Shown here piece by piece: positions 1 to 4,135 of a stretch of 64,000 bases of DNA; position 1 is the stretch's first letter, and every line of letters begins with the position of its first letter. The DNA is from Azotosporobacter soli (GTDB lineage: Bacteria; Bacillota; Negativicutes; SG130), in NCBI RefSeq assembly GCF_030542965.1, contig NZ_JAUAOA010000022.1, positions 1 through 64,000 of the forward strand, in the 5' to 3' direction. Made by a program: the position numbers and the translations under genes. The notes beneath the pieces were generated by a model that did not search any database, had not been told where the DNA came from, and worked only from the letters and a program-made list of their open reading frames with translations.

Positions 1-250
<250 letters not shown>

Positions 251-448: not shown

Positions 449-601
449 TTAGCAGTAAATCGAAACATATTTTTCGCTTAATTGGTCAAGCGTCGCTCTC
501 ATTTCAAGCATGCTTTCTTCCGGTAAAGCTTGCGCCAGGTTATCACAATGTACGACCGACGATAATTTACGAATGCTCGCTAACAGTTCTAATTTTTCCA
601 C
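449..601 (-). CDS. Small Spo0E-like protein (50 aa)
   Basis: A 50-codon reading frame starts at GTG (599-601), eight bases after a GAGG-type ribosome binding site, and ends at TAA (449-451). The predicted product begins VEKLELLASIRKL and ends with LDQLSEKYVSIYC. The pattern of a leading helix, a variable linker and a second helix carrying xxLDxLxxxY resembles the Spo0E family of short aspartyl-phosphate phosphatases, which dephosphorylate Spo0A~P in sporulating Firmicutes. The hallmark SQELD core is only partly kept (RATLD), so the function is tentative. It lies just upstream of the rRNA promoter in the same direction. Presence of a coding frame is likely; the family call is weak. Confidence 0.45.
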   Translation of the reverse strand: MEKLELLASIRKLSSVVHCDNLAQALPEESMLEMRATLDQLSEKYVSIYC

Positions 602-705: not shown

Positions 706-1089
706 TTACACTGGCAACGTGTTCTTCTTAAACCAGGTCACCAAATGATCGACTTTGCTCCGCCCAGCCGCAACGTCTTTTACCATATCAATGATCTTAT
801 CCTGGGCGGCAATTACATGATACCCGTTAATTCGCAAGGAAAATAAAGCTGCCAGAACGGCAATTCGTTTGTTGCCGTCTTGAAAAGGTTTATTGTTTAT
901 CATCGCATATAGCAAAACAGCTACTTTTGTAAAAACATCCGGATATAAGTCTTCGCCTTCAAATGCGACCATCGGCTTGTTTAAAATTTCCTCTAAGGCA
1001 TTTTCATCTTGAAGCCCTGCTGTGCCGCCTGTACGACGAATCATTTCCGTATACAGATAGATGATTTCCTCCATATGAAGGTAACGCAT
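706..1089 (-). CDS. Doc-type (death-on-curing) toxin, Fic fold
   Basis: This 127-residue protein matches the Doc branch of the Fic family in length and pattern. Doc toxins phosphorylate elongation factor EF-Tu and stop translation. The signature loop is present as KPFQDGNKR (residues 67-75), but the catalytic His that opens the canonical H-x-F-x-D-x-N-K motif is Lys67; Asp71, Asn73 and Arg75 are kept. The gene begins with an ATG that directly abuts the TAA stop of the upstream AbrB-like gene, so the two are probably translationally coupled as a toxin-antitoxin pair. With the His missing, the protein may be inactive, altered in chemistry, or a member of a Lys-bearing subgroup; the sequence cannot decide. 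Confidence 0.85.
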   Translation of the reverse strand: MRYLHMEEIIYLYTEMIRRTGGTAGLQDENALEEILNKPMVAFEGEDLYPDVFTKVAVLLYAMINNKPFQDGNKRIAVLAALFSLRINGYHVIAAQDKIIDMVKDVAAGRSKVDHLVTWFKKNTLPV

Positions 1090-1329
1090 TTACCGCAACC
1101 CCCTCAGCGTATATTCATAGTCGACCAGCAACTTGTCCACCATCCGAACAAAATCTACGGAGAACTGTTTTTTCTTAACGACGACCGGCTTTAAAACCAA
1201 TTCTTGTTGTTCACGATTCACTTCCATAGTCACGTGCGATCCTTCTGTCAGTTCCAATGCCTTCATCATGGTTAGCGGCAACGAGATCACGCAACTATTG
1301 CCGGCTTTGAAAATCTTCCGTACCTCCAT
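1090..1329 (-). CDS. AbrB/MazE-family antitoxin
   Basis: A 79-residue protein with an N-terminal swapped-hairpin AbrB domain (MEVRKIFKAGNSCVISLP, then a LxxGSHVxMEV strand pair) and a C-terminal tail with DFVRMVDKLLVDYEYTL that would neutralise the partner toxin. The start at 1329 is chosen because GGAGGG lies nine bases upstream and the AbrB domain begins there; an upstream in-frame ATG at 1380 would add 17 residues unlike the family. The gene ends immediately before the Doc start codon. AbrB-fold antitoxins usually bind their own operator and repress the pair, which is expected here but not visible as a clear palindrome. Confidence 0.85.
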   Translation of the reverse strand: MEVRKIFKAGNSCVISLPLTMMKALELTEGSHVTMEVNREQQELVLKPVVVKKKQFSVDFVRMVDKLLVDYEYTLRGLR

Positions 1330-1401
1330 AGCCTTGTCCCTCCATTTTATCGATTGACATGCAAACGTCATTACTGTCATCTACGTATATATACGCGATG
1401 T

Positions 1402-2364
1402 TCAAACGGTTTCCTGCAAAAATTTTCGCACAGCGGCACCATGCAGGTAATCGCATTTCCGCCCCTGCCATGTATTTCGTTCTGTCATCTGTGCAACAAT
1501 CGTATCGCGAATCTTCCACCAACCAGTCTGCCAATTGCTGAATAGAGTATTGCTTTCCGGCGCACGTCCAATCAGCCTTTGTACGGTGATATCCGGATGC
1601 AGGTGTTCTAAAAACAGAATCACCCTTTCCATATACTCTTCTTTGCTGATCAAATCAATCTGCCCTTCTTGATACCACTTCGCCAATAACGTTCCTTTGA
1701 CTACATATAGCGCATGGAGTTTGACTTCCGTTACGCCGAGCGCCGATAAGATTCGAGCGCCTTCTTTAACGTCAAGCTCATCATCCCATGGCAGGTTTAA
1801 TATTAAATGTGCGCAAATGGAAAAACCATATCGTTTGATCCGTTGTACAGCCTCAATAAATTCCGCCAAACCATGGCCCCGATTAATTTTTTTCAACGTA
1901 TGATAATTTACCGTTTGCAACCCCAACTCAATGCTGATCTCAATCTCTTTCTCCTGCGCTACTTCCGCCAGCATCGCCAGATACGTCTCATGGATGCAGT
2001 CCGGCCTGGTGGCAAGTGCGACGCCGACTATATCCGGCTGGCACGCTTCTACTATATGAGCACGTAAATCTTCAGGCGGCAAGTAAGTGTTGCTAAAGTT
2101 TTGAAAATACGCGATAAACTTTTCCGCCTTATACTTCGGCTTGATATGCGCCATATTGGTTGCGATCTGCTCCGCAACCGTGATCGATGCAGGTAAGTTT
2201 TCATAGCCGGCGCCAATTTCGCCGCAAAATACACAGCCGTCTGAGCCGCAAGTTCCATCGCGATTGGGACATGTAACCGGTAAACTGACCGGCAGTTTAT
2301 ATACCTTGACGCCAAAACGACGGCGCAGGTAATCCGAATAGGCATTATAACGTTCTGTCAGCAT
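1402..2364 (-). CDS. Radical SAM protein, YhcC/TIGR01212 family
   Basis: The product (320 aa) belongs to the YhcC-like radical-SAM group. It has an unusual cysteine spacing, C32, C39, C44 and C47, with CVFC forming the end of the SAM-cluster motif; this is typical of the TIGR01212 family. The substrate of these proteins is not established. I start it at the ATG at 2364, where family homology begins (MLTERYNAYSDYLRRRFG); a longer frame to 2508 would overlap the preceding gene and has no family match. It follows the B12-binding radical-SAM gene by about 20 bases, so the two form an operon from the promoter at 4167-4195. Confidence 0.85.
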   Translation of the reverse strand: MLTERYNAYSDYLRRRFGVKVYKLPVSLPVTCPNRDGTCGSDGCVFCGEIGAGYENLPASITVAEQIATNMAHIKPKYKAEKFIAYFQNFSNTYLPPEDLRAHIVEACQPDIVGVALATRPDCIHETYLAMLAEVAQEKEIEISIELGLQTVNYHTLKKINRGHGLAEFIEAVQRIKRYGFSICAHLILNLPWDDELDVKEGARILSALGVTEVKLHALYVVKGTLLAKWYQEGQIDLISKEEYMERVILFLEHLHPDITVQRLIGRAPESNTLFSNWQTGWWKIRDTIVAQMTERNTWQGRKCDYLHGAAVRKFLQETV

Positions 2365-2383
2365 CAGCGTAAACCCGCTTTCT

Positions 2384-4135
2384 TCATCGAACTGACTCCT
2401 GCTCCATCTCAGACACGGCATGCAATTGAACACGTTTACCGCTGTAGTCAATGAGAATCGTTTGGCTGAGCCTGTTAATTGTTCCACTTGCAAGATATTG
2501 CAAGACATCGAACGACATCTGTTCCATTTGATACCTTTTTTTCAATTCCCGCCAGGAAAGAAACGTATAGTTCGGAAGATATTGGCGCACTCTCTCCTCA
2601 TCACGCCAAAAAGCGGTTTTTTCCTCATCCCACTGTTCGCCGTCCCAGCTTAAGCCGCTAATCCGCAAACCGCCCTTAGGCACGAGCAGCATATCCAGTT
2701 TGAGAAGCTCTTCAAACAGCTCCATCGCCATGGCATATTCTTCTCGCGCGAATCGCAGTAAAATCTCCGCCAAACCCTTGGAACTGTGCGCAATCATCTG
2801 AAAGCCTTGCCCTGCCCAATACTCCGCCAATCTTTCATAAAAGACAAATGCGCCACCCTGTGTCTGACGAACCAGATAGTCAACCGAATGTGCAAACAGT
2901 CCGCTATTGTAAAAGCGTTCGACGACATCTTCCACTTCTTTTAACTTTAAAAGTTCCGCATAGTGTAGCCATCGATTGCCCATCACTTCATACGGCGGAA
3001 TATCGAGAAAAACATATTCATGTTTTTCCGCTTCGCGACGGATCCCTGATCCCGGCAGCAATTTCAAAAAGCCAAGCTGAAGCATATGCGGCTTGAGCGC
3101 ATACACTTCATTAAAGGAATTTGCAAAACTAGCATAGTCTTCATAAGGCAGGCCCGCGATTAAATCGAGATGCAAATGTACATTATCCGCTTTGCGCAGG
3201 CAGTTCACATTGTCCGTTAGACGCTCCCATTGATTTATCCGCTGGATTTGACGCAGCGTTTTTTCATTCGTCGACTGAACACCGATTTCCAACTGAAAGC
3301 GACCGGAAGGCAATGCAGTCAACAGTTCCAAATCTGTTTGCTGTAAAATATCGGCCGACACTTCAAAATGAAATAACGTTTCCGCCTCCGCTTGCGCCAG
3401 ATAACGCCAAATGCTCTGATAATGTTCCGGTTTTGCATTGAACGTCCGATCCACTAATTTCACCTGACGGACTTGCCTACGCAAAAAAACATCCAGTTCA
3501 GCTTTCACCTTATCAAAACTACGAAAACGCACGCCTTGCGTAGCACTGGAAAGACAATATTGGCAAGAATAAGGGCAACCGCGCGAAGTTTCATAATAGA
3601 GAATCTTTCCTGTTAGTTGTTCTAAATCCGTTTCTTCATAAGGAAAAGGCAAGCTGTCCAGTTCATTCACAACCTGCGCCTCACCAGCCACAATCCCTTC
3701 TGGGCTACGCCAGGCAATCCCCTTAATTCTCGCTATGCCTTCATCATCATTTCGTAGCGCTTTTAGTAACGCAGGCAACGTTTCTTCGCCTTCGCCTAAA
3801 ATTACATAATCCACCCAAGGCGCATTTTGCAATAAGGAAGCGGCGTTATAGGTCGCCTCCGGTCCTCCAATGATGATTTTGCATTTCGGTAAAATCGCCT
3901 TGATCGCTTGCGAAAGCTGGAGGATCTCCTGGCGGTTCCAGATATAACAGGCCAACGCCAACACGTCCGGATTCTGCCGGAACAAGTCGCCGACCAAATC
4001 ACTCAGGTGCTGATTGATGCTGTATTCTTTTATTTCACTTAATATCCCCTGCGCCTTCAAAGAACTTTTTAAGCTGTATAAAGCCAACGCCGAGTGGACA
4101 TATTTGGCATTTAATGTCGTTAGGACAATCTTCAT
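2384..4135 (-). CDS. B12-binding radical SAM protein with C-terminal DUF4080
   Basis: A 583-residue protein with an N-terminal cobalamin-binding-like domain (residues about 1-130, including GGPEATYNA and ILGEGEETLP segments), a radical-SAM core with CPYSCQYC (C187, C191, C194), and a C-terminal DUF4080-like region of about 150 residues. B12-dependent radical-SAM enzymes of this type commonly methylate or rearrange unactivated carbons; no substrate is known for this subfamily. The N-terminal region lacks a clear DxHxxG motif, so cobalamin binding may be base-off or weak. The ATG at 4135 is preceded by GAGGTG. It is first in a two-gene unit with the YhcC-like gene. Confidence 0.85.
   Translation of the reverse strand: MKIVLTTLNAKYVHSALALYSLKSSLKAQGILSEIKEYSINQHLSDLVGDLFRQNPDVLALACYIWNRQEILQLSQAIKAILPKCKIIIGGPEATYNAASLLQNAPWVDYVILGEGEETLPALLKALRNDDEGIARIKGIAWRSPEGIVAGEAQVVNELDSLPFPYEETDLEQLTGKILYYETSRGCPYSCQYCLSSATQGVRFRSFDKVKAELDVFLRRQVRQVKLVDRTFNAKPEHYQSIWRYLAQAEAETLFHFEVSADILQQTDLELLTALPSGRFQLEIGVQSTNEKTLRQIQRINQWERLTDNVNCLRKADNVHLHLDLIAGLPYEDYASFANSFNEVYALKPHMLQLGFLKLLPGSGIRREAEKHEYVFLDIPPYEVMGNRWLHYAELLKLKEVEDVVERFYNSGLFAHSVDYLVRQTQGGAFVFYERLAEYWAGQGFQMIAHSSKGLAEILLRFAREEYAMAMELFEELLKLDMLLVPKGGLRISGLSWDGEQWDEEKTAFWRDEERVRQYLPNYTFLSWRELKKRYQMEQMSFDVLQYLASGTINRLSQTILIDYSGKRVQLHAVSEMEQESVR

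Follow-up and report, generated by a model that had tools for sequence, protein, structure and literature searches.

Close to the start of the window, by which we mean the whole 64,000-nucleotide stretch of Azotosporobacter soli DNA that was analysed, a gene for an AbrB/MazE-type protein and a gene for a Doc-like protein form a pair on the minus strand, between a radical SAM gene and the 5′ end of a 16S rRNA gene (Table 1). The TAA stop of abrB and the ATG start of doc have 0 bases between them, and the doc frame contains ...MINNKPFQDGNKRIA... with the motif NKPFQDGNKR. In profile searches, the window Doc scores 65.8 bits against NCBIfam TIGR01550 (cut-off 38.65) and 48.6 against Pfam Fic (cut-off 24), and its partner scores 31.0 against Pfam MazE_antitoxin (cut-off 24.7); against TIGR02609 'doc_partner', the AbrB protein reaches 37.1 bits, under the curated cut-off of 55.9.

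Table 1 Features of the AbrB–Doc locus and related sites
Feature	Position	Strand	Remarks
Pseudo-Doc gene	706..1089	minus	127 aa; Doc fold predicted; Lys67 instead of catalytic His
Degenerate Fic motif KPFQDGNKR (Lys67 to Arg75)	865..891	minus	read from the sequence
Lys67 codon AAA	889-891	minus	read from the sequence
AbrB/MazE-type partner gene	1090..1329	minus	79 aa; putative DNA-binding; stop abuts Doc start
Radical SAM gene	1402..2508	minus	directly upstream of the pair in 12/12; exists in genomes without the pair too
Conserved 50-aa ORF, GTG start	449..601	minus	between doc and 16S rRNA; exists without the pair too
16S rRNA gene, 5′ end	1..247	minus	follows the pair in the same orientation
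Candidate operator upstream of abrB	1367..1394	minus	inferred only; carries GTATATATACGTAGATGACAGTAATGAC
Alcohol dehydrogenase-side palindromic sites	L134, L135, L131, L138 at 1501-1517; G332:C42:39123-39137

The motif His is the general base of the Fic/Doc reaction. The motif of active Docs has been given as HxFx(D/N)(A/G)NKR with this catalytic His (PMC4177925), and the His of the Fic/Doc motif is reported to be essential (PMC4454073). The window protein departs from the active motif at Lys67, and both the Lys in place of the motif His and the exactly abutting AbrB–Doc pair, which a sequence-only reading of this DNA had pointed out, are real features of the window sequence.

The window protein is nevertheless predicted to keep the Doc fold. 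An AF2 model, built from an alignment of 30 rows of which 18 are His-bearing relatives, has a pLDDT of 95.5 and a pTM of 0.88, and its Foldseek matches include 3dd7, 3k33 and 3kh2 (TM 0.84–0.87). The best PDB match (3dd7, TM 0.87) is P1 Doc H66Y with Phd, which likewise lacks the motif His but is a laboratory mutant bound to Phd, whereas the partner here is an AbrB protein.

Docs with Lys or Arg at the motif His

Among 100 relatives searched, 37 genomes matched at E<=1e-6. The window aside, eight homologues at 54–63% identity were found among these relatives, none of which carries the His (0/8), and the more distant Doc loci translated in the same survey carry it in 21/21 cases. Screening 380 genomes of the class with a profile gave matches in 87 at E<=1e-15; 12 genomes (window included) scored 217–244 bits and the next best 97.7 bits. 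These 12 are spread over six families (f1, f8, f15, f26, f32 and f33), and every one of their Docs matches TIGR01550 at E<=0.001. In a Doc tree of 34 rows (the 12 and 22 others chosen by hand, with near-duplicates, partial and weak matches omitted), the 12 His-less Docs form one clade (support 99/99) with a stem of 0.62 changes per column.

Position 67 is Lys (AAR codons) in six clade members and Arg (CGN codons) in the other six, and His in 22/22 other rows; the homologue survey that had been suggested for this substitution thus finds a basic residue throughout the clade. A recent strain-specific mutation, which would leave His in the homologues and Lys in this strain alone, is rejected, as the His is absent in 12/12 clade members and present in 0/11 when the window is set aside. 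Lys67 occurs at two separate places in the tree, the window and f26, with a fork of support 90/80 between them, so that Lys and Arg have been exchanged at least twice on the Doc tree with the charge kept.

Other positions also set the clade apart. Position 13 is Tyr in 12/12 members and His in 20/22 other rows, and Arg27 is found in 0/12 members and 19/22 other rows. Tyr11, Tyr13, Glu15, Lys38, Val41 and Glu44, together with Asp51, Phe53, Thr54, Val58, Val113 and Asp114, do not vary within the clade and are seldom found in the 22 other rows. Within the motif, Asn73 is retained in 12/12 and Lys74 in 11/12 members; Asp71 is retained in five and changed in seven, and Arg75 is retained in six and gone in six. 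Members from f26 and f8 have neither Asp71 nor Arg75, and the motifs of f26 rank among the most eroded (e.g. SKPFASANKP and SKPFASANRA).

A scan of GTDB genome contigs based on two short peptide patterns confirmed 14 loci, seven of which are members of the 12-member clade; the other seven, at 34–56% identity and some over part of the query, all carry His. In 398 sampled genomes of the phylum, of which the window is the sole clade member, a pattern of His, Gln, Lys, Asn, Arg or Ser before PFxDGNKR, which misses motifs departing from PFxDGNKR, matched 58 times, with His in 57 cases and Lys in one, the window (reversed control, one match). Close relatives were not found in viral contigs with a single-sequence query, which reaches close relatives only. 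A plasmid collection gave 1777 matching records and a phage collection 77, none at >=60% identity; the best 30 of the 1777 plasmid matches have <=40.7% identity and the best 30 of the 77 phage matches <=43.2%.

His-less Docs, with Gln at that position, and inactive toxin–antitoxin regulators have been published before. A search of the open literature, with subscription papers and preprints outside its scope, returned no Lys/Arg Doc group in titles or abstract openings. Doc clade D2, described in 2015 from 45 sequences, is likewise retained as a clade with the catalytic His replaced, but the replacement there is Gln (Qx[FY]x[DE][GV]NKR; PMC4454073), and here it is Lys or Arg in 12/12. The composite mazE-doc family TasAB of Bacillus thuringiensis pGI1 resembles the pair in having an AbrB/MazE antitoxin gene directly before the Doc gene, an arrangement found in 12/12 clade members, and a GNS motif in the antitoxin; TasB has the motif H(x)5NKR (PMC1626090), unlike the clade, whose members lack the His in 12/12 cases and share the same chromosomal surroundings in 12/12. 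MtvT/MtvA likewise consists of overlapping genes, for an AbrB/MazE-type antitoxin and for a toxin homologue from which an active-site residue is missing (PMC11826091). However, that toxin is MazF-like and plasmid-borne where the present one is Doc-like, and non-toxicity, complex formation and promoter binding were tested there, while the present pair is known from its sequence. Bartonella effectors, too, are reported to include FIC domains whose motifs are non-canonical and for which activity was not detected (PMC8401265).

Selection and the chromosomal site

The sequence-only reading had argued against simple decay of the toxin, and as far as sequence can tell this holds: the substitution is clade-wide, the pair is coupled and the genes are under constraint in one subgroup, f26. 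Internal stops occur in the Doc frame of 0/12 clade members, and an AbrB gene lies directly upstream of doc in 12/12, abutting it or overlapping by 1–4 bases. In family f26, dN/dS is 0.033–0.120 for doc (10 pairs) and 0.019–0.102 for abrB, and those pairs give 0.068–0.166 for the radical SAM gene next to them; between families, synonymous sites approach saturation (mean pS 0.83), so no ratio is given.

The pair occupies the same place in all members. The AbrB gene starts 48–102 bases beyond where the radical SAM match ends in 12/12, and rRNA sequence is visible downstream in 9/12, the remaining three contigs stopping earlier. A 16S rRNA start is present in six (L001, L006, L007, L010, L046 and L048; the L006 contig stops inside its first bases), and three contigs end in rRNA-leader-like sequence (L003, L008 and L047). 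The last three (L004, L005 and L009) end in promoter-like repeats, from which rRNA is inferred there. In L004, L006 and L048, tandem TTGACA–TATAAT-like promoter repeats lie past the doc stop, before the 16S rRNA or the contig end, and a GTCG element follows several of them.

The 50-aa ORF is present in 9/12 pair-bearing genomes, immediately ahead of the promoter region of the 16S rRNA, with the consensus KLELL...I.KLS...LD.L[ST]E.Y..YC. It was not found between the pair and the rRNA side in L047 and L048, and in L010 a C-terminal remnant alone lies past the doc stop, next to an intact AbrB–Doc pair. Six f26 pairs give this ORF a dN/dS of 0–0.144, and a Pfam search with the window copy returned no match.

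For comparison, 25 class genomes without the pair were taken from the best 30 of 76 radical SAM matches, five loci repeating clade members having been removed. No abrB or doc of the clade kind lies beside the radical SAM gene in these 25; in L115 and L122, where merely 129 and 123 bases follow that gene, absence of the pair rests on the whole-genome search. The 50-aa ORF follows the radical SAM gene in 17/25 and a 16S start in 9/25, and three (L114, L119 and L125) have neither within ~1.5 kb. The pair thus fills one slot in largely conserved surroundings. Its presence requires six changes on the radical SAM tree, at least two of which are forced by well-supported branches; that tree is compatible with one gain followed by losses (e.g. 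in G094 of f26) as well as with transfer to the same site. Elsewhere in the A. soli genome there is one other distant Doc-like match (L002 1501-1827; G000:C1:270033-270359), at 28% identity within a 247-aa open frame.

A candidate operator upstream of abrB

The upstream regions of the window abrB and of the abrB of another clade member (L046) share the 12 bases ACAGTAATGACG, and GACAGTAATGAC has a single occurrence in the window's own genome, at the abrB promoter. In f26, the abrB promoters carry GTATATAC(A/T)GTAATTAC or close forms. An operator pattern derived from them, RTAYATACWGTAATNAC with <=1 mismatch, matches these promoters in 5/5 f26 genomes by construction, and its reversed control gave one match in six genomes. 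At this mismatch level there was no match in the window's own genome and the operator-like pattern had none at the adjacent rRNA promoters; outside f26, the putative operator is recognisable loosely, by eye.

The pattern has further matches in every f26 genome. In 4/5 of these genomes, RTAYATACWGTAATNAC finds an AT-rich palindromic site like that of the abrB promoter downstream of one shared alcohol dehydrogenase gene, and a looser core pattern matches there in 5/5, exactly in four. Within f26, the genome that lacks the pair, G094, also lacks that alcohol dehydrogenase gene. Elsewhere, the looser pattern has exact matches at one site each in G090, G332, G094 and G000, and in total it is no commoner than its control (90 versus 100 matches in seven genomes). 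We do not claim a regulon, and regard the alcohol dehydrogenase site as a lead only.

Proposed function of the AbrB–pseudo-Doc pair

Based on these observations, we propose that the locus carries a domesticated AbrB–Doc pair, held at one chromosomal site, in which a catalytically dead Doc would be kept as the partner and co-repressor of AbrB (probability about 0.6). The standard Doc reaction has very likely been lost, and the toxin–antitoxin pair has probably turned into a regulatory complex. In this mechanism, the pseudo-Doc would keep the Doc fold while being dead for Fic/Doc phosphotransfer, would bind the AbrB protein, and would modulate how AbrB binds the promoter of the pair, much as Doc acts on Phd; it would persist because of this binding and its effect at the promoter. 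The always-basic residue 67 may hold the complex together. The co-repressor role is suggested by analogy with three systems: Doc H66Y, which is non-toxic and whose structure was solved bound to Phd (PMC2686095); Phd-Doc, a strong repressor where Phd alone is a weak one (PMC3920265); and a MazEF-like pair of Pseudomonas, inactive and with a substitution in its active site, that functions as a regulator (PMC11826091).

Several observations weigh against this proposal. The operator is a guess, loosely recognisable outside f26, and the looser pattern is outnumbered by its control; the pair is patchily present (12/380 class genomes) and needs six changes on the radical SAM tree; the dN/dS values come from one family; and the discoverers of the His-to-Gln Doc clade argued that it is possibly not catalytically dead (PMC4454073). 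A wider role, in which AbrB–pseudo-Doc serves as a dedicated transcription switch for targets other than its own promoter, possibly ligand-gated through the old nucleotide pocket, appears unlikely; the target in one genus would perhaps be the palindromic site beside the alcohol dehydrogenase gene.

The sequence-only reading had left two options, that the toxin uses another mechanism or that it became a regulator. The latter is the better of the two, as judged from sequence and analogy, and the former is disfavoured by Arg in 6/12 members, the loss of Arg75 in 6/12 and the change of Asp71 in 7/12. Lys67 as a replacement general base was considered and is likewise disfavoured because half of the clade has Arg. 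Arg is a poor general base, which also counts against an active enzyme with altered chemistry, whose Lys/Arg67 would bind phosphate or serve a different transfer reaction. Such an enzyme could explain why position 67 is always basic despite at least two Lys/Arg exchanges, and Doc clade D2 has been proposed to keep some function (PMC4454073); however, f26 and f8 lack both Asp71 and Arg75, yet purifying selection acts on the f26 genes, and we find this account distinctly doubtful. It is possible, though unlikely, that the protein inhibits growth without catalysis, by stoichiometric binding of a Doc target (EF-Tu or the ribosome) with AbrB as antidote, or that it counters active Doc systems as a dominant-negative or by trapping antitoxin. 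The retained predicted fold, the conserved Asn73 (12/12) and Lys74 (11/12) and the AbrB gene in 12/12 agree with this, as does an inactive VopS mutant that binds its target more tightly as a 'substrate trap' (PMC2686095), but the window's own genome has no close active Doc, its one distant match being at 28% identity.

Two further explanations have little to recommend them. Regulation of the neighbouring rRNA operon or small ORF in cis would fit the shared strand and what follows the pair, a 16S rRNA gene (6/12), an rRNA-leader-like contig end (3/12) or promoter-like repeats (3/12). However, these surroundings exist without the pair (small ORF in 17/25, 16S start in 9/25), and the f26 operator-like pattern has no match at the adjacent rRNA promoters, making this very improbable. 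Ordinary decay of a toxin–antitoxin pair, consistent with the patchy presence and the extra motif erosion in some members, is scarcely credible given the uninterrupted frames (internal stop in 0/12), the low f26 dN/dS (0.033–0.120) and the clade-specific invariant residues.

The clade is a natural experiment on whether a toxin–antitoxin pair can remain worthwhile after losing its poison. That a toxin fold has been kept at one site in six families despite lacking its catalytic residue renders the idea of toxin–antitoxin pairs as regulators directly testable, and it serves as a warning that the annotation 'death-on-curing toxin' need not mean a toxin.
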